Shown: positions 303 to 4,201 of the stretch, in pieces | How the letters are laid out: each line of letters begins with the position of its first letter | How positions within the stretch are numbered: the first letter of the stretch is position 1 | Source: a virus | DNA: 30,976 bases | Strand: one strand, 5' to 3' | Virus record (IMG/VR): IMGVR_UViG_3300005664_000038 | Span: 1-30,976 of that record | The notes under the pieces: model-generated | The model's input: only the letters and a program-made list of their open reading frames with translations | The model's database searches: none | What the model was told of the DNA's origin: nothing | Translations under genes and position numbers: made by a program

Positions 303-562
303 TGATTATTTGGGAGGATATAGTTGATCTTCCCAGCGGTTGGCTTGAGTTGGATGAAGCCCTTGATCACGAGTATATACAGAATGCTGTATCCTATACG
401 GTTAGACAGTATGGTACTTTGATTGACGAGACAGAAGATTACATCCTTATTGCCGGGGCTGTATTTGAAGATAAATCACAGTTGTCCCACGTTTCCAGAA
501 TACCAAGAGGTGTTGTTAAGAAGATTGTGTATTTGGAAGAAAAAAGTTTAGAAAAGACTTGA
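281..562 (+). CDS. Small acidic protein of unknown function
   Basis: The ATG at 281 is preferred over one at 239. AGGAGG lies at 271-276, four bases before it, a rare strong Shine-Dalgarno in this window. The upstream extension also lies wholly inside the preceding zinc-ribbon gene. The 93-residue product begins MLLHKPVMIIWEDI, is rich in acidic residues in the middle and ends in a charged helix (KKIVYLEEKSLEKT). I do not recognise the family. The contrast between this SD and the SD-less genes elsewhere suggests this pair belongs to a differently regulated, possibly early or middle, transcription unit. Confidence 0.6.
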   Translation: MLLHKPVMIIWEDIVDLPSGWLELDEALDHEYIQNAVSYTVRQYGTLIDETEDYILIAGAVFEDKSQLSHVSRIPRGVVKKIVYLEEKSLEKT

Positions 563-588
563 CTTGTAATTAACTTTAGTTATATTTG
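559..588 (+). promoter_or_regulatory. Bacteroidota-type promoter P1 upstream of the tRNA array
   Basis: TTG at 559-561 is followed after 19 nt by TATATTTG at 581-588, which fits the Bacteroidota primary-sigma consensus of TTG plus TAnnTTTG at about -33 and -7. The predicted start of transcription is near A593. It would drive the structured leader at 593-720 and, on read-through, the first tRNA block. Confidence 0.65.
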
Positions 589-592
589 CACC

Positions 593-720
593 ATGAAGCA
601 TTTACGCCCCTCACTACAACAACAGTATCTCAGTTTAGAGACTGGTAGGGGTGTAATCAATTAGGAATATAGTGTTTTTTCATATTGGTTTTTGGCCCCG
701 CCTGATAAGCGGGGTTTTTT
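593..720 (+). ncRNA. Structured leader or small RNA between promoter P1 and its terminator
   Basis: The predicted transcript starts at P1 and ends at an intrinsic terminator. A nine-pair stem (one G-T) joins TACGCCCCT at 603-611 with AGGGGTGTA at 647-655. Inside it a second stem joins CAG and TCTC with GAGA and CTG around 622-644. A 23-codon frame (593-664, beginning MKHLRPSLQQ) starts exactly at the predicted first base. The unit could be a free small RNA, or a leader controlling read-through into the tRNAs. The two cannot be told apart from sequence. Confidence 0.4.
696..720 (+). terminator. Intrinsic terminator before the first tRNA
   Basis: CCCCGC at 696-701 pairs with GCGGGG at 709-714 around a 7-nt loop, followed directly by six T. 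It stands 7 nt before tRNA-Pro, so it either ends the leader RNA or gates expression of the array. Confidence 0.85.
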
Positions 721-727
721 ATTTTAT

Positions 728-803
728 AGCGAATTACGGAAGTCAGGTTTTTCCGGCAGGCTTTGGGAGCTTGAACGCACTGGTTCGAATCCAGTATTCG
801 CTA
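728..803 (+). tRNA. tRNA-Pro (TGG)
   Basis: The seven-pair acceptor AGCGAAT/ATTCGCT is complete. The D-arm CGGA/TCCG, anticodon stem CAGGC/GCTTG with loop TTTGGGA, and T-arm ACTGG/CCAGT with loop TTCGAAT are all present. The discriminator is A, followed by CT, and no CCA is encoded. U34 could read all four Pro codons by wobble. Confidence 0.93.
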
Positions 804-805
804 CT

Positions 806-877
806 GTCAGTATGGTGTAACGGTTAGCACCTAGGGTTTTGGTCCCTGTAGTTACAGTTCGAATCTGTATACTGATA
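806..877 (+). tRNA. tRNA-Gln (TTG)
   Basis: The acceptor GTCAGTA/TACTGAT has one G-T pair at 1-72. The D-arm is GTG/CAC, the anticodon loop TTTTGGT sits on TAGGG/CCCTG, and the T-arm TACAG/CTGTA has loop TTCGAAT. It begins only two bases after tRNA-Pro. The discriminator A is followed by C. Confidence 0.92.
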
Positions 878-879
878 CT

Positions 880-954
880 GTGCTTGTAGCTTAGACAGGT
901 CTAAAGCAAGGGGTTGTGGTTCCCTGATCACGAGTTCAAATCTCGTCAAGCACC
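880..954 (+). tRNA. tRNA-His (GTG)
   Basis: The acceptor GTGCTTG/CAAGCAC, D-arm GCTT/AAGC, anticodon loop TTGTGGT on AGGGG/TCCCT, and T-arm ACGAG/CTCGT with loop TTCAAAT are intact. Position 73 is C, as in bacterial tRNA-His. The base at -1 is T, so the G-1 needed by HisRS is not encoded in the usual place and may have to be added or replaced. Confidence 0.92.
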
Positions 955-957
955 TAT

Positions 958-1028
958 CTTCTCGTAGCTTAATGAAGAGCGATAGAATACGAATCTATCA
1001 GGTAAGGGCTCGTACCCCTTCGAGAAGT
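958..1028 (+). tRNA. tRNA-Arg (ACG), divergent
   Basis: The acceptor CTTCTCG/CGAGAAG, D stem GCTT/GAGC, anticodon stem ATAGA/TCTAT with loop ATACGAA, and T stem AAGGG/CCCTT all pair. The D-loop AATGAA lacks the GG pair and the T-loop is CTCGTAC instead of TTCRANY, so the elbow contact should be weak. The discriminator is T. A34 would need deamination to inosine by host TadA to read CGU, CGC and CGA. Confidence 0.8.
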
Positions 1029-1033
1029 CTAAT

Positions 1034-1109
1034 GCCTGTGTGGTCAAATTGGAAAAGGCGCCTGACTTAGGATCAGGAGATTTTGCAGGTTCGAGGCCTG
1101 CCACAGGTA
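1034..1109 (+). tRNA. tRNA-Leu (TAG), short variable arm
   Basis: The acceptor GCCTGTG/CACAGGT, anticodon loop CTTAGGA on CCTGA/TCAGG, and T-arm GCAGG/CCTGC with loop TTCGAGG are clear. The variable region is only about 7 nt, far shorter than the long arm normal for bacterial tRNA-Leu and seen in the next gene. Confidence 0.88.
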
Positions 1110-1113
1110 CTTT

Positions 1114-1202
1114 GTCCCTATGGTGAAATTGGCAGTACACGTCAGACTTAAAATCTGAAGCGAAGTAATAGTAGCGTGAAGGTTCGAAGCCTTCTGGGGA
1201 CA
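1114..1202 (+). tRNA. tRNA-Leu (TAA)
   Basis: The acceptor GTCCCTA/TGGGGAC, anticodon loop CTTAAAA on TCAGA/TCTGA, a long variable arm of about 19 nt, and T-arm GAAGG/CCTTC with loop TTCGAAG make a class II tRNA of 89 nt. The discriminator A is followed by CA. Confidence 0.93.
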
Positions 1203-1208
1203 CAACAA

Positions 1209-1294
1209 GGAGGGTTGGTAGAGATGGATTATTGCACCAGTCTTGAAAACTGGAGGCCGTAACTGGTCCGTGAGTTCGAATCTCACACCCTCTT
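1209..1294 (+). tRNA. tRNA-Ser (TGA)
   Basis: The acceptor GGAGGGT/ACCCTCT has a G-T first pair. The anticodon loop CTTGAAA sits on CCAGT/ACTGG, a long variable arm follows, and the T-arm GTGAG/CTCAC has loop TTCGAAT. The discriminator is T rather than the G usual for bacterial tRNA-Ser. Confidence 0.9.
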
Positions 1295-1300
1295 CTACAA

Positions 1301-1385
1301 AGAGAGTTGGCAGAGTCAGGTTTATTGCAACAGGTTGCTAACTTGTAGGTCTAACGATCCAAGGGTTCGAATCCCTTACTCTCTT
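1301..1385 (+). tRNA. tRNA-Ser (GCT)
   Basis: The acceptor AGAGAGT/ACTCTCT, anticodon loop TTGCTAA on ACAGG/CTTGT, a long variable arm, and T-arm AAGGG/CCCTT with loop TTCGAAT are present. The discriminator is T, like the neighbouring tRNA-Ser, and is followed by C. Confidence 0.9.
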
Positions 1386-1388
1386 CTT

Positions 1389-1462
1389 CTCCCTCAACGC
1401 CCAGGGCTGGTTGGACGCACTGTAAATGCGAACCACATGTAGTTCGAGTCTACTCTGGGGGA
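1389..1462 (+). tRNA. tRNA-Tyr (GTA), degenerate
   Basis: The anticodon loop CTGTAAA on CGCA/TGCG and the T-arm GTAG/CTAC with loop TTCGAGT identify a GTA tRNA. The acceptor pairs for only about five positions (CTCCC/GGGGG) and the next two positions mismatch. The D stem CAAC/GTTG follows after a shortened connector. There is no long variable arm, unlike usual bacterial tRNA-Tyr. It may be weak or inactive. Confidence 0.65.
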
Positions 1463-1485
1463 CTTAAAAAAAGTTTAAATAAAAT

Positions 1486-1516
1486 TTGGAAGTTTCAAAC
1501 AAGCTTCCTACATTTG
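1486..1516 (+). promoter_or_regulatory. Bacteroidota-type promoter P2 before tRNA-Glu
   Basis: TTG at 1486-1488 and TACATTTG at 1509-1516 are 20 nt apart. The predicted start is near A1521, the first base of a 23-codon frame (1521-1592, beginning MITSDKNIEA) that runs into tRNA-Glu. The site would restart transcription after the nine-tRNA block. Confidence 0.65.
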
Positions 1517-1562
1517 CTTCATGATTACTTCAGACAAGAACATTGAGGCTGAGGAGCGTAAT

Positions 1563-1635
1563 GCTCCAGAGGCCAAACAGGTTGAGGCGTAGCCCTTTCA
1601 AGGCTAAGGAACGAGTTCGAGTCTCGTCTGGAGTA
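1563..1635 (+). tRNA. tRNA-Glu (TTC)
   Basis: The acceptor GCTCCAG/CTGGAGT, D stem GCC/GGC with GG in the loop, anticodon loop CTTTCAA on TAGCC/GGCTA, and T-arm ACGAG/CTCGT with loop TTCGAGT are intact. Position 8 is A instead of the near-universal T. The discriminator A is followed by CA. Confidence 0.92.
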
Positions 1636-1663
1636 CAAACTTAAATTAGAAAATGAAAAAGAA

Positions 1664-1692
1664 TTGGTTTAATATAATTATCACTACGTTTG
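1664..1692 (+). promoter_or_regulatory. Probable promoter P3 before the second leader unit
   Basis: TTG at 1664-1666 and TACGTTTG at 1685-1692 are 18 nt apart, slightly shorter than the other promoters here. Transcription would start near 1697 and meet the hairpins and terminator at 1725-1818 before tRNA-Ala. Confidence 0.45.
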
Positions 1693-1696
1693 CCAG

Positions 1697-1818
1697 AGAT
1701 TGTGGCAGAGTGGGGACATTATGTGGGAACCAAGCTTAGACTTTACTTTACTTATTATAGTTTAAAATTGAAGTGTGAAAAGTAAGCTAGGTTCCTCAAA
1801 AGGGAACCTTTCTTATTT
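1697..1818 (+). ncRNA. Structured leader with two competing hairpins before tRNA-Ala
   Basis: GGAACC with adjacent AGCTTA near 1726-1738 can pair with TAAGCT and GGTTCC near 1783-1795. The same GGTTCC arm can instead pair with GGAACC at 1803-1808 to form the terminator. The two folds exclude each other, the classic layout of an attenuator. No product is encoded. A 24-codon frame (1653-1727) overlaps it but is not convincing. Confidence 0.4.
1789..1818 (+). terminator. Intrinsic terminator before tRNA-Ala
   Basis: AGGTTCC at 1789-1795 pairs with GGAACCT at 1803-1809 around a 7-nt loop and is followed by TTCTTATTT. The T tract is interrupted, so termination may be partial, allowing read-through into tRNA-Ala, Asp and Asn. 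Confidence 0.65.
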
Positions 1819-1820
1819 AT

Positions 1821-1890
1821 GGGCTTGATGTCAACGGCAGACCAACTCCTTTGCAAGGAGATTGATTGGGTTCGATTCCCACATAGTCCA
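1821..1890 (+). tRNA. tRNA-Ala (TGC), partly mispaired
   Basis: The anticodon loop TTTGCAA on CTCC/GGAG and T-loop TTCGATT on TGGG/CCCA identify it. The acceptor GGGCTTG/ATAGTCC has the G3-T70 pair that marks tRNA-Ala for AlaRS, but pairs 6-67 and 7-66 mismatch. Position 8 is A. The discriminator A is as expected for Ala. Confidence 0.78.
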
Positions 1891-1895
1891 CATAC

Positions 1896-1968
1896 GTGTC
1901 GTTAGGGGAGCGGAGTCCCTGCCTGCCTGTCACGCAGGAGATCATGGGTTCAAATCCCATACGATGCG
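1896..1968 (+). tRNA. tRNA-Asp (GTC)
   Basis: The acceptor GTGTCGT/ACGATGC, D stem GGGG/TCCC, anticodon loop CTGTCAC on CCTGC/GCAGG, and T-arm ATGGG/CCCAT with loop TTCAAAT are all present. The discriminator is G, the AspRS identity base. Confidence 0.93.
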
Positions 1969-1973
1969 CTTAA

Positions 1974-2045
1974 GGGTTGTTAGCCTAGAGGTCAGGCAGC
2001 ACACTGTTAATGTGCCCTACAGTTGTTCGATTCAACTACGACCCT
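1974..2045 (+). tRNA. tRNA-Asn (GTT)
   Basis: The acceptor GGGTTGT/ACGACCC, D stem GCC/GGC, anticodon loop CTGTTAA on GCACA/TGTGC, and T-arm AGTTG/CAACT with loop TTCGATT are intact. The discriminator is T rather than the usual G of bacterial tRNA-Asn. Confidence 0.92.
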
Positions 2046-2047
2046 CT

Positions 2048-2086
2048 CAGTATCCAAATATTAAATTTTATTTGGATACTGTTTTT
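2048..2086 (+). terminator. Strong intrinsic terminator after tRNA-Asn
   Basis: A 13-pair stem joins CAGTATCCAAATA at 2048-2060 with its exact complement at 2069-2081, followed by TTTTT. It closes the Ala-Asp-Asn block. Its 3' arm also supplies the -33 TTG of the next promoter. Confidence 0.9.
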
Positions 2087-2102
2087 GAAAGCAGTACCTT
2101 TG
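2072..2102 (+). promoter_or_regulatory. Promoter for the HNH gene, overlapping the terminator
   Basis: TTG at 2072-2074, inside the terminator stem, lies 20 nt before TACCTTTG at 2095-2102. The predicted start is near G2106, the first base of the GTG chosen for the HNH gene, so the message would be leaderless. Confidence 0.55.
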
Positions 2103-2105
2103 TTC

Positions 2106-2462
2106 GTGCCTTCAAAAAATAAAGAAATCGTAAAGAAGCACAGAGATGCTTGGTACGTTAAGAACAAAGAAAAACAAATAGCTAGACAGCTAGAAAGAAG
2201 AAGGGAACTACAAGAATGGTTCTGGAAGTATAAAAGAACCTTAAATTGTACTGATTGTACTGTTTCATTTCTAGATTGTCCTGAGATCTGTGACTTCCAC
2301 CACATTGATCCATCTGCCAAAAAAGATGTAGTAGGTCAATTGATAGGAAGTAGTAAAGAAGCAGTCCTTAGAGAAATAGAAAAGTGTGTTCCCTTGTGTG
2401 CTAATTGCCATAGGAAGAGACACAAAGATTTATATAAATACGCAGGTCCTCATGAGGCGTGA
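2106..2462 (+). CDS. HNH homing-type endonuclease inside the tRNA array
   Basis: This is a free-standing HNH nuclease of about 118 residues. It has a basic helical N-terminus (PSKNKEIVKKHRDAWYVKN), then CTDC (48-51), DFHH (63-66) and CANCHRKRH (98-106), which are the two zinc-binding Cys pairs and the HNH catalytic core. Small phage enzymes of this family nick or cut DNA and often spread as homing elements; here the likely target is tRNA-flanking DNA. The frame has no ATG after the terminator. The GTG at 2106 gives the usual short start V/M-P-S-K and coincides with the predicted transcript start. The last seven codons and the TGA lie inside tRNA-Trp, a 21-nt overlap. The start is inferred; the family call is firm. 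Confidence 0.85.
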   Translation: MPSKNKEIVKKHRDAWYVKNKEKQIARQLERRRELQEWFWKYKRTLNCTDCTVSFLDCPEICDFHHIDPSAKKDVVGQLIGSSKEAVLREIEKCVPLCANCHRKRHKDLYKYAGPHEA

Positions 2463-2512
2463 TAAGCAGTCTCCAAAACTGTGATTTAGAGGTTCAACTC
2501 CTTTGGCCTGTG
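2442..2512 (+). tRNA. tRNA-Trp (CCA)
   Basis: The acceptor GCAGGTC/GGCCTGT has G-T pairs at 1-72 and 6-67. The anticodon loop CTCCAAA sits on GCAGT/ACTGT and the T-arm AGAGG/CCTTT has loop TTCAACT. The discriminator is G, the TrpRS identity base. The D stem is only TCA/TGA and position 8 is C. Its first 21 bases are also the end of the HNH gene. Confidence 0.85.
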
Positions 2513-2518
2513 CACAAT

Positions 2519-2591
2519 TCCTCGGTGGCTCAGTGGCTACAGCAGCAGTTTTGTAAACTGCCATTCGTCAGTTCGACTCTGACTCGGGGAT
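2519..2591 (+). tRNA. tRNA-Thr (TGT)
   Basis: The acceptor TCCTCGG/TCGGGGA, D stem GCT/AGC, anticodon loop TTTGTAA on GCAGT/ACTGC, and T-arm GTCAG/CTGAC with loop TTCGACT are intact. The discriminator is T and is followed by C. Confidence 0.93.
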
Positions 2592-2605
2592 CTTAAAAGT
2601 AAAAT

Positions 2606-2998
2606 ATGGCAGAATTAAAGTTAAAGAAGCCTAAGGAAACTGATAGTATCGTTGAGTTCTTCTCAATGCTGCTCAATTCAAGCACCCAGGCCCACATCTT
2701 TCACTTCCAAACTAAGTCCTATGCAGCACATGCAGCATTAGGGAGTTACTACGAAGAAGTAGTGGGGTTGGCTGATGAATTAATAGAAGCTTATCAAGGT
2801 AAGTATGGCATAGTAACAGGGTACTCCAGCTACGCCATGAAAGACCTTAAAGACACTGAAAGTGCTATTGAATTCCTGAATAGTGTACACACTAAGGCGG
2901 AATCAATAGCATTCTCAGATTCAGATCTCAAGAACAAAGTAGATGAGATTAAGTCCCTGATCAAGACTACTCTCTACAAACTCAAGAATCTGAAGTAA
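2606..2998 (+). CDS. DUF5856-like helical protein within the tRNA array
   Basis: This 130-residue, almost entirely alpha-helical protein resembles the phage family DUF5856. The hallmark is a stretch near residues 29-65 with HxFHFQTKSYAAH, a GxYYEE segment and EAYQGKYG, carrying His and acidic residues arranged somewhat like a small ferritin or Dps four-helix protein. The biochemical role of the family is not known to me. The start follows tRNA-Thr by 14 nt with an A-rich leader and no Shine-Dalgarno. The TAA at 2996-2998 ends exactly where tRNA-Arg(TCT) begins, so RNase P cleavage would leave a message ending at its stop codon. No tRNA-related motif is visible. Family recognition is from memory. 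Confidence 0.75.
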   Translation: MAELKLKKPKETDSIVEFFSMLLNSSTQAHIFHFQTKSYAAHAALGSYYEEVVGLADELIEAYQGKYGIVTGYSSYAMKDLKDTESAIEFLNSVHTKAESIAFSDSDLKNKVDEIKSLIKTTLYKLKNLK

Positions 2999-3069
2999 CT
3001 CTCTGTCGTTCAATGGAAGGACGTCAGTCTTCTAAGCTGACTATGCTAGTTCGAATCTAGCCGGGGAGA
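2999..3069 (+). tRNA. tRNA-Arg (TCT)
   Basis: The acceptor CTCTCTG/CGGGGAG, D stem GTTC/GGAC, anticodon loop CTTCTAA on TCAGT/GCTGA, and T-arm GCTAG/CTAGC with loop TTCGAAT are present. The first base directly follows the stop codon of the DUF5856-like gene. It reads AGA, a codon used heavily in the flanking phage genes. Confidence 0.92.
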
Positions 3070-3079
3070 CAGAGAACAT

Positions 3080-3151
3080 CGACCCTTGGCGCAATGGAGG
3101 CGCGTCTCGCTCATAACGAGAAGGACAGCAGATCGGTACTGCTAGGGTCAA
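3080..3151 (+). tRNA. tRNA-Met (CAT), initiator-like
   Basis: The acceptor CGACCCT/AGGGTCA pairs at six positions but has C1 opposite A72, the mismatch that marks bacterial initiator tRNA. The D stem is GCGC/GCGC, the anticodon loop CTCATAA sits on TCTCG/CGAGA, and the T stem AGCAG/CTGCT carries loop ATCGGTA, with A instead of T at 54. Against an initiator role, the anticodon stem lacks the three consecutive G-C pairs and 11-24 is C-G. Confidence 0.85.
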
Positions 3152-3203
3152 CAAAGGAAAGAAAGATATGGAATCAGACAAGAAAGACTACGATAAGATT
3201 TAT

Positions 3204-3276
3204 TCTGTCGTAGCTCAATTGGTGGAGCCCTCGCCTTTTAAGCGAGAGGATGTGGGATCGTGGCCCACCGGCAGAA
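3204..3276 (+). tRNA. tRNA-Lys (TTT), altered T-loop
   Basis: The acceptor TCTGTCG/CGGCAGA, D stem GCTC/GAGC, anticodon loop CTTTTAA on CTCGC/GCGAG and T stem GTGGG/CCCAC are all paired. The T-loop is ATCGTGG rather than TTCRANY, exchanging T54 and A58 for A and T. The discriminator is A. Confidence 0.9.
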
Positions 3277-3281
3277 CTTAA

Positions 3282-3355
3282 GCTGAAGTAATTCAAGTGG
3301 TACAGAACCCTCTCTGATAAGGAGGTATGTGGTGGTTCAAATCCATCCTTCAGCA
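3282..3355 (+). tRNA. tRNA-Ile (GAT)
   Basis: The acceptor GCTGAAG/CTTCAGC, a D stem TTC/GAA, anticodon loop CTGATAA on CCTCT/GGAGG, and T-arm GGTGG/CCATC with loop TTCAAAT are present. The discriminator is A. It reads AUU and AUC but not AUA. Confidence 0.92.
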
Positions 3356-3361
3356 CTAAAT

Positions 3362-3435
3362 GGCGGGATAGAGAAGTGGTCTATCTCATGACTCTCATAA
3401 GGTCAAAATCCTAGGTTCGAATCCTAGTCCCGCTA
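3362..3435 (+). tRNA. tRNA with CAT anticodon (elongator Met or Ile2)
   Basis: The acceptor GGCGGGA/TCCCGCT, D stem GAGA/TCTC, anticodon loop CTCATAA on TGACT/GGTCA, and T-arm CTAGG/CCTAG with loop TTCGAAT are intact. Sequence alone does not settle whether C34 stays as Met or is changed to lysidine by TilS to read AUA as Ile. The discriminator A is followed by one C and then the ATG of the next gene. Confidence 0.92.
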
Positions 3436-3436
3436 C

Positions 3437-3796
3437 ATGAAGAATACTTGTCAAAAAGGGAATATTATTGAAGCAAAAATACTTTCTCGATTTGTGGAAA
3501 AAGATTACCTAACCTTTATACCTTTTGGTGAAGGTCATAAATGCGATCTTGTTTTTATTAGCAAGGAAGGTGACTTAAAAAGAGTACAGGTTAAGAAATC
3601 AAGAGAAACCAAATCAGGTTCTTTTACGATTAACTTATACTCAAATGGTGGAGGGTATAATAAGATAAAGTATACTAAAAGTGATATTGATTACTTTGGA
3701 ACAGAGCACGGTGGAAGATACTACCTTATTCCTATAGAAGACGTTGAGGGTAAAACTGTAGTTTCTATTAGACCGGGTAGTAAGTACGAATTTTAG
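3437..3796 (+). CDS. PD-(D/E)XK homing-type endonuclease inside the tRNA array
   Basis: This 119-residue protein has the core of the PD-(D/E)XK fold: a helix with E12, then a strand with D37 (CDLVF), then the Q-V-K triad at 51-53. Small enzymes with this layout include homing endonucleases such as I-Ssp6803I, which sits in an intron of a tRNA-fMet gene. Here the gene is free-standing. The start codon lies one base after the discriminator of the CAT tRNA. The last base of its TAG is the first base of tRNA-Phe. RNase Z and RNase P cuts would therefore leave a message with a one-base leader and an incomplete stop codon. The fold is inferred from motif order; the DNA target is unknown. Confidence 0.75.
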   Translation: MKNTCQKGNIIEAKILSRFVEKDYLTFIPFGEGHKCDLVFISKEGDLKRVQVKKSRETKSGSFTINLYSNGGGYNKIKYTKSDIDYFGTEHGGRYYLIPIEDVEGKTVVSIRPGSKYEF

Positions 3797-3868
3797 GACT
3801 TTAAGCTAATCTAGTGAAAGCATTCGCCTGAAGAGCGAGGGAGCTTGGAGCGTAACCAAGAGAGTCCA
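3796..3868 (+). tRNA. tRNA-Phe (GAA), altered D- and T-loops
   Basis: The acceptor GGACTTT/AGAGTCC, D stem GCT/AGC, anticodon loop CTGAAGA on TTCGC/GCGAG and T stem CTTGG/CCAAG pair well. The T-loop is AGCGTAA instead of TTCRANY and the D-loop lacks adjacent G18 and G19. Position 8 is A. G1 is shared with the stop codon of the preceding endonuclease gene. Confidence 0.85.
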
Positions 3869-3873
3869 CATAC

Positions 3874-3944
3874 GCCCAGTTGATGTAATGGTAGCGTCCT
3901 TGCATTACAAGCAAGTGGTAGTAGTTCGATTCTATTACTGGGTA
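3874..3944 (+). tRNA. tRNA-Val (TAC)
   Basis: The acceptor GCCCAGT/ACTGGGT, anticodon loop ATTACAA on CTTGC/GCAAG, and T-arm AGTAG/CTATT with loop TTCGATT are present. The D-arm is short but has GG in its loop. The discriminator is A, as usual for Val. Confidence 0.92.
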
Positions 3945-3960
3945 CAAAGGGGAGAAACAT

Positions 3961-3994
3961 GTGCAGTAGCCCTGCTGTCTAGACAGTACTGCAC
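3961..3994 (+). other. Non-tRNA hairpin between tRNA-Val and tRNA-Gly
   Basis: GTGCAGTA at 3961-3968 pairs exactly with TACTGCAC at 3987-3994. Inside, CTGT at 3975-3978 stacks with ACAG at 3983-3986 after a 6-nt bulge. No T tract follows and no tRNA can be folded here. It fills most of the 55-nt gap and could be a processing signal or a remnant. Confidence 0.6.
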
Positions 3995-3999
3995 TCTAA

Positions 4000-4071
4000 G
4001 CAAGAGTCGTATAACGGCTATTATAGCTGGCTTCCAACCAGCGGATGAGGTTTCGATTACCTCCTCTTGCT
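4000..4071 (+). tRNA. tRNA-Gly (TCC)
   Basis: The perfect acceptor GCAAGAG/CTCTTGC, anticodon loop CTTCCAA on GCTGG/CCAGC, and T-arm GAGGT/ACCTC with loop TTCGATT are present. The D stem is all A-T (TAT/ATA). The discriminator T matches the GlyRS identity base of bacterial tRNA-Gly. Confidence 0.92.
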
Positions 4072-4075
4072 CATT

Positions 4076-4147
4076 GCCTGATTAGCCAAGTGGAAAGGTA
4101 TGGGTCTGCAAAACTCACATGCCCCTGTTCGATCCAGGGATCAGGCT
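4076..4147 (+). tRNA. tRNA-Cys (GCA)
   Basis: The acceptor GCCTGAT/ATCAGGC, D stem GCC/GGT, anticodon loop CTGCAAA on TGGGT/ACTCA, and T-arm CCCTG/CAGGG with loop TTCGATC are intact. The discriminator T is the CysRS identity base. This is the last tRNA of the array. Confidence 0.93.
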
Positions 4148-4169
4148 CAAAATAAATATTGTGTTTTAC

Positions 4170-4201
4170 TTGCTTTTTAGTTTAAACAATATTTATATTT
4201 G
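4170..4201 (+). promoter_or_regulatory. Bacteroidota-type promoter P4 of the packaging operon
   Basis: TTG at 4170-4172 and TATATTTG at 4194-4201 are 21 nt apart, and the ATG of the next gene follows at 4214. No terminator is visible before 14225, so this promoter may serve a 10-kb operon through the portal gene. Confidence 0.7.

Follow-up and report, generated by a model that had tools for sequence, protein, structure and literature searches.

A complete tRNA set in a crAss-like soil phage, probably gated by attenuators that sense the tRNAs themselves

Why a phage should carry transfer RNA (tRNA) genes for every amino acid, and what determines when they are transcribed, is the question raised by IMG/VR record IMGVR_UViG_3300005664_000038. 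The window analysed here spans the entire record (30,976 bases), which belongs to a crAss-like phage from soil, and its array of 24 tRNA slots at 728-4148 covers all 20 isotypes, with CAT being the only anticodon present twice. We found that the array is divided into three segments (nine tRNAs, a single tRNA-Glu, and 14 tRNAs; Table 1), and that segments 1 and 3 each lie behind an intrinsic terminator preceded by a short open reading frame (ORF), the leader, whose codons are those served by the tRNAs behind it. On the basis of the sequence and of RNA folding models, we consider it very probable that the array supplies a complete replacement set and is controlled by ribosome-mediated transcription attenuators, which would sense the tRNAs themselves.

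The control codons of leader 1 are CAT TTA CGC CCC TCA CTA CAA CAA CAG TAT CTC AGT TTA, corresponding to His, Leu-TAA, Arg-ACG, Pro, Ser-TGA, Leu-TAG, Gln, Tyr and Ser-GCT; they serve nine of the nine tRNAs behind terminator 1 and none besides. Leader 3 provides codons for Lys, Asn, Trp, Phe, Ile2 (ATA), Ile, Thr, Ala, Arg-TCT (AGA), Asp, Cys, Gly and Val, which are all 13 of the non-Met tRNAs behind terminator 3, with Met represented by the start codon in the window and by an internal ATG in L029, a 96-kilobase (kb) relative whose terminase is 77% identical to that of the window. The division holds at the codon level, with Arg CGC in leader 1 versus AGA in leader 3, and with the Ile2 codon ATA in leader 3. 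Both leaders are present in L029 with altered sequence and the same codon-tRNA correspondence, and in L011, a relative with a six-tRNA array (Pro-His-Leu-Asn-Leu-Tyr), the leader MRNTHLLNPNYLLPKV contains ten consecutive codons for exactly these six tRNAs; that is, the control codons are cognate to the products of the operon. Random ORFs drawn from phage codon use rarely reach full coverage (p-value 5e-4 for window leaders 1 and 3 each, 3e-3 and 8e-5 for the L029 leaders, 2e-3 for L011), and in a set of 2627 real short ORFs taken from nine related loci, hardly any besides the leaders reach such coverage in an uninterrupted run.

The arrangement of these elements is that of an attenuator. Each leader ORF lies between a promoter and a terminator, leader 1 behind promoter P1 and leader 3 on the transcript of the shared promoter P2, and each terminator stands immediately before the first tRNA gene of its segment. 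P1 is of the Bacteroidota type and is also listed as TTGACT-16-TATATT (559-586), with the same box and spacing in L029. The leaders fold in a trp-attenuator-like manner, in which arm E1 (control region) pairs with E2 (near the end of the ORF), or E2 with E3, or E3 with E4 to form the terminator; in leader 1, E2 is able to pair with E1 or with the terminator arm E3. E2 is almost a copy of E4, and E2 and E3/E4 co-vary between the window and L029 (GGGAACC/GGTTCC to GGGACC/GGTCCC). Upon placing a ribosome footprint at each codon and folding the remainder, a minimum-energy procedure with a crude footprint, the antiterminator is obtained with aminoacyl-site codons 2-14 of window leader 1 and 2-20 of window leader 3, and with codons 2-17 and 2-20 of L029 leaders 1 and 3 and 2-13 of the L011 leader. 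Past those codons the antiterminator pairing weakens or vanishes and the terminator forms, and in five of five leaders this switch occurs where the cognate run stops. In silico, the antiterminator excludes the terminator and the position of the ribosome switches them. The codons at which a stall would yield the antiterminator divide between segment-1 and segment-3 tRNAs as 13:1 in leader 1 and 0:19 in leader 3 (Fisher's test, p-value 2e-8; 4e-7 in L029).

In the proposed mechanism, RNA polymerase would start at P1 and make leader 1, which a ribosome would translate at once. When all segment-1 tRNAs are plentiful, the ribosome would reach the end of the leader and cover E2, and the terminator before tRNA-Pro would form; when any of the nine is scarce, the ribosome would stall on its codon and block E1, E2 would pair with E3, and transcription would continue into the array. 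Leader 3 would work likewise for the 14 tRNAs of segment 3. We infer that the leaders are translated, that stalled ribosomes lead to readthrough inside cells, and that the trigger is tRNA depletion in the course of infection; in nature it could come from tRNA-cutting defences of the host, from decay of the host's tRNAs as infection proceeds to its late phase, or from a poor host. The sequence-only reading had suggested that the phage is prepared to translate after host tRNAs are destroyed or are unsuitable; this gains support in part, in that readiness for tRNA shortage is upheld and refined here to a probable attenuator-gated release. Leaders of the same design could also answer uncharged tRNA during host starvation, in the style of trp, his and ilv, with the array as a stress output, since a missing and an uncharged tRNA are indistinguishable to a leader. 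We regard such amino-acid sensing as unlikely, because the codon split for Arg and Ile tracks tRNAs and not amino acids: Arg CGC stands with Arg-ACG in leader 1 and AGA with Arg-TCT in leader 3, and ATA and ATT/ATC are both found in leader 3, behind which both Ile tRNAs lie. Moreover, an extra tRNA is no remedy for amino-acid starvation.

To what extent does this arrangement recur in other phages? We scanned 120 IMG/VR contigs with three consecutive tRNAs, picked by T-loop pattern only, and defined units blind to codons, taking the longest ATG-initiated ORF before a terminator located at most 100 nucleotides (nt) from the first tRNA. The outcome was 35 units on 29 contigs, among them the window and its two relatives. 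Leaders matched their own array better than permuted arrays, both in coverage (0.78 vs 0.62, z = 5.1) and in the share of codons belonging to the set (0.46 vs 0.35, z = 7.0); z was 5.1 and 6.9 after removal of duplicates and 4.3 and 6.1 after removal of the window's clade. The same nucleotides in other frames or on the opposite strand showed no leader-array match. The pipeline took the wrong ORF in L011 and sometimes a longer nested start, and the statistics were kept unaltered. In the 23 units with strong codon match, E2:E3 pairing exceeded that of shuffled sequences (Fisher's test, p-value 7e-8, conditional on strong and weak classes that were set by the codon match itself).

Clear independent cases are L393, L324, L360, L371 and L390. 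In L393, three leaders follow in succession, the first, MKTFSQNHQWDNCEQNHFSG, ahead of Trp Cys Glu Gln His Asn Asp, the second ahead of Lys Arg Gly Thr Met Arg Ile Pro, and the third, beginning MNNSYLYLSSLLSL, ahead of Leu Leu Ser. The L390 leader, beginning MNVFEHEFFAAERAAAEFAAAAFEAF, precedes Glu Ala Phe Ala Glu Glu Glu, and the L324 leader has four ATA codons with Ile-TAT in the array behind it. The cultured cyanophage S-PM2 carries the leader MSNISKQIEIIMESDCRYWHIAQSLLLANKDKRM, a strong terminator and a tRNA array (Lys Tyr Asp Glu Ile Ser Ser Met His Gln Trp Arg Val), in that order; its leader ORF is unannotated, opposite an annotated hypothetical gene, and the core DCRYWHI of the leader is common to three IMG/VR contigs. 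We consider it likely that many phages with tRNA arrays, from unrelated lineages, silence their arrays behind multivalent codon-by-codon attenuators and activate the segment with the missing tRNA on demand, as a countermeasure when host defence or the infection itself depletes tRNAs. The array could also be constitutive, with ordinary terminators and unrelated small ORFs and with tRNAs serving codon-use compensation or general translation, and such leaders are indeed absent from many phage arrays; the leader-array codon match, its dependence on frame and its recurrence make this very unlikely, as does a non-redundant set that covers all isotypes and extends beyond those of over-used codons. 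Codon-use compensation as the sole purpose of the array was rejected on the grounds of the same non-redundancy and span.

Several observations weigh against control of the array by attenuation. Segment 2 (Glu) has a leader and no terminator. Codon-family matching across all scan units is modest (49 vs 31), and we detected no leader-terminator units in the arrays of crAss001, cr111_1, T5 and a 194-kb crAss-like phage. Taken alone, E2:E3 pairing does not exceed that of shuffled sequences in window leader 1 (p-value 0.24) or in L011 (p-value 0.50). In full-length folds the terminator prevails at many stall positions, and because the finished terminator prevails in so many of them, the switch must be kinetic and decided during transcription. 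The model also assumes that coupling of translation and transcription in Bacteroidota is tight enough.

We next consider the members of the array. The sequence-only reading had counted 24 tRNAs for all 20 amino acids, and this count stands. ARAGORN called 20 tRNAs at 728-4148, and the Rfam model RF00005 additionally gave Phe-GAA (39.4 bits). Ala-TGC (1821-1890) scored 27.3 bits with RF00005, slightly below the cut-off of 29, Trp-CCA (approximately 2441-2512) had a weak tRNA-Sec match of 20.5 bits as its sole model signal, its L029 ortholog being called by ARAGORN, and Tyr-GTA (approximately 1388-1463) was called neither by ARAGORN nor by the Rfam models. These four were accepted because L029 holds a collinear array with the identical 24 anticodons in identical order. 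The Tyr ortholog in L029 is 80% identical, with the anticodon stem kept by paired changes (CGCA/TGCG to CGGT/ACCG). The long variable arm of class II bacterial tRNA-Tyr is absent from both, and this atypical tRNA-Tyr may be charged abnormally. Many window/L029 tRNA pairs differ at between one quarter and one half of their positions, figures that are rough only, as MAFFT alignments of several pairs were poor; since anticodons and order were kept despite such divergence, both are under selection. Homing endonucleases offer another account, namely selfish or neutral accumulation of tRNAs, to which the HNH and PD-(D/E)XK ORFs between the tRNAs and the varying array size among close relatives (0 to 24 tRNAs) would conform. 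We find this extremely improbable, given the 24 anticodons shared in order by widely divergent arrays and the existence of the L029 array without the endonuclease ORFs.

If wobble is allowed, the set fails to read CGG (12 of 8309 codons), and also ATA (176) unless one CAT tRNA is of the Ile2 type, in agreement with the gaps named from the sequence alone. Similarity of the two CAT tRNAs in the window to Bacteroidota fMet, Met and Ile2 did not separate the isotypes; CAT tRNA 1 is probably Ile2, favoured by its C4-G69/C5-G68 pairs and by the ATA codons of leader 3. Of the 17 isotypes that could be compared, 12 have the same anticodon loop as the Bacteroidota tRNA, which lends little support to nuclease-proof loops. 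Separately, both tRNA-Ser genes of the window (1209-1386) have U73 and their L029 counterparts G73, and tRNA-Asn (1974-2046) has U73 in both phages where Bacteroidota tRNA-Asn has G73.

Regarding known systems, the phage belongs with the Crassvirales, as its major capsid protein matches PF23898 (3e-61), PHROG families are matched by its terminase, portal and head protein, with phrog_6681 among the matches, and the array lies upstream of the terminase (9456) in the same genome. Arrays covering all isotypes had been called rare, which is weaker within this group; in cr111_1 (GenBank MT774387), the same place is occupied by 26 tRNAs that serve all 20 amino acids and enclose a homing endonuclease and a DpsA-like gene, and crAss001 has 25 tRNAs covering 17 amino acids (PMC6235969). 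The tRNA count alone is therefore ordinary. The arrays of crAss001 and cr111_1 resemble that of the window in being upstream of the terminase, in their many isotypes and in enclosing homing-type endonuclease and DpsA-like ORFs, whereas no leader-terminator unit was found in them and their tRNA order differs. Amino-acid operon attenuators (trp, his, thr, and the multivalent ilvGMEDA) resemble the window in that control codons lie in a short leader ORF, the protector, antiterminator and terminator hairpins exclude one another, and a terminator precedes the first gene; in the window, by contrast, the regulated genes are the tRNAs themselves and the carrier is a phage, and a single phage leader samples from a few to approximately 20 isoacceptors with codons mirroring the array behind the terminator. 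T-box riboswitches likewise control a terminator by sensing in cis whether tRNA is charged, but they bind tRNA directly without a leader peptide, and the T-box covariance model of Rfam had no match in the window. One proposal is that phage tRNAs rescue translation when tRNA-cutting defences act (mycobacteriophage C1, retron and PARIS evasion), and the broad set of the window fits such replacement of depleted host tRNAs; in the portions of those reports considered here (PMC10264068, PMC11555353), the subject is the tRNAs carried, whereas our proposal concerns transcription control that senses shortage, and most loops in the window are of the host type. No report of attenuated phage tRNA arrays was found in open-access full texts, a corpus mostly outside which subscription papers and preprints fall. 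Ribosome-mediated attenuation is known, and its application to phage tRNA arrays is, as far as we can tell, new.

The array is not a single block, as three ORFs (HNH, DUF5856 and PD-(D/E)XK) and two terminators lie within it or at its head. A DpsA-like gene is also found within the crAss001 and cr111_1 arrays, and L029 has none at that place. Two ORFs enter tRNA genes, the Glu-rich leader 2 (tRNA-Glu) and MESDKKDYDK (tRNA-Lys), both with counterparts in L029; that of leader 2 stops at the same tRNA-Glu position, and the Glu enrichment of leader 2 has a p-value of approximately 0.02. Translation of these ORFs might block folding of the tRNAs unless the ribosome stalls. At 2048-2081, immediately 3' of tRNA-Asn and bordering the HNH insert, a terminator-like hairpin of 13 base pairs (bp) might split segment 3.

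An IMG/VR search with leader DNA patterns matched only L029 and contigs without tRNAs, and no integrated relatives that could reveal the host were present in the genome contigs searched. A chromosomal locus of Chryseobacterium indologenes AA5 (L209, G011:C1:737200-738700) has eleven tRNAs in 1.5 kb, several of them atypical in sequence, and resembles an array of phage type, here located in a bacterial chromosome; a similar leader was not found in this cluster. The 194-kb crAss-like phage (IMGVR 3300012016_000001; L242, L243) has approximately 25 tRNAs, of which three have the anticodon CTA and are possible amber suppressors. In a related contig (L009, 221-315), ARAGORN called a tRNA with a four-base anticodon (aaat) next to Thr and Gly tRNAs.

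Table 1. Features of the tRNA array and its control regions in the window
Feature	Position	Strand	Remarks
Promoter P1, Bacteroidota-type	559-588	+	TTGAC ... -7 box TATATTTG (581-588); 4 nt 5' of leader 1 start codon
Leader 1 ORF	593-664	+	MKHLRPSLQQQYLSLETGRGVIN, then stop; 23 codons; codons 3-15 serve all nine segment-1 tRNAs
Leader 1 attenuator arms	605-653	+	E1 CGCCCCT 605-611; E2 AGGGGTG 647-653
Intrinsic terminator 1	694-726	+	GGCCCCGCCTGATAAGCGGGG and T-run; immediately before tRNA-Pro; counterparts in L029 and L011
tRNA-Pro(TGG)	728-804	+	ARAGORN
tRNA-Gln(TTG)	806-878	+	ARAGORN
tRNA-His(GTG)	880-954	+	ARAGORN
tRNA-Arg(ACG)	958-1029	+	ARAGORN
tRNA-Leu(TAG)	1034-1110	+	ARAGORN
tRNA-Leu(TAA)	1114-1203	+	ARAGORN
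tRNA-Ser(TGA)	1209-1295	+	ARAGORN
tRNA-Ser(GCT)	1301-1386	+	ARAGORN
tRNA-Tyr(GTA), atypical	1388-1463	+	Last of segment 1; L029 ortholog with paired stem changes
Promoter P2, -7 box	1509-1516	+	TACATTTG; 4 nt 5' of leader 2
Leader 2 ORF, Glu-rich	1521-1592	+	MITSDKNIEAEERNAPEAKQVEA, then stop; ends within tRNA-Glu
tRNA-Glu(TTC)	1563-1636	+	Segment 2; ARAGORN
Leader 3 ORF	1653-1739	+	MKKNWFNIIITTFARDCGRVGTLCGNQA, then stop; 28 codons; codons 2-20 serve 13 non-Met segment-3 tRNAs
Leader 3 antiterminator arm E2	1725-1733	+	GGGAACCAA; copy of terminator arm E4
Intrinsic terminator 3	1789-1820	+	AGGTTCCTCAAAAGGGAACCT and T-rich tail; abuts tRNA-Ala
tRNA-Ala(TGC)	1821-1891	+	G3-U70; Rfam 27.3 bits; L029 ortholog
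tRNA-Asp(GTC)	1896-1969	+	ARAGORN
tRNA-Asn(GTT)	1974-2046	+	ARAGORN
HNH endonuclease ORF	2109-2462	+	Between Asn and Trp; phrog_3106 5e-22; not in L029 array
tRNA-Trp(CCA)	2441-2513	+	Weak tRNA-Sec match; L029 ortholog called by ARAGORN
tRNA-Thr(TGT)	2519-2592	+	ARAGORN
DUF5856/DpsA-like ORF	2606-2998	+	Family matches; not in L029 array
tRNA-Arg(TCT)	2999-3070	+	ARAGORN
CAT tRNA 1, probably Ile2	3080-3152	+	ARAGORN; C4-G69/C5-G68; leader 3 ATA codon
ORF MESDKKDYDK...	3168-3281	+	Extends into tRNA-Lys; start conserved in L029
tRNA-Lys(TTT)	3204-3277	+	ARAGORN
tRNA-Ile(GAT)	3282-3356	+	ARAGORN
CAT tRNA 2, Met type (elongator or initiator)	3362-3436	+	ARAGORN
PD-(D/E)XK endonuclease-family ORF	3437-3796	+	PF11645 4e-15; not in L029 array
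tRNA-Phe(GAA)	3796-3868	+	Rfam RF00005, 39.4 bits
tRNA-Val(TAC)	3874-3945	+	ARAGORN
tRNA-Gly(TCC)	4000-4072	+	ARAGORN
tRNA-Cys(GCA)	4076-4148	+	ARAGORN
Promoter of downstream genes, -7 box	4194-4201	+	TATATTTG; box position

The purpose of phage-borne tRNAs has been under debate for decades, and a leader that mirrors the anticodons of the array behind it shows what the phage would be built to sense, namely the shortage of particular tRNAs. The leaders render the replacement hypothesis directly testable with reporters. Furthermore, the leader-array match provides a sequence signature by which such phages can be found, and a compact sensor of the state of the tRNA pool.

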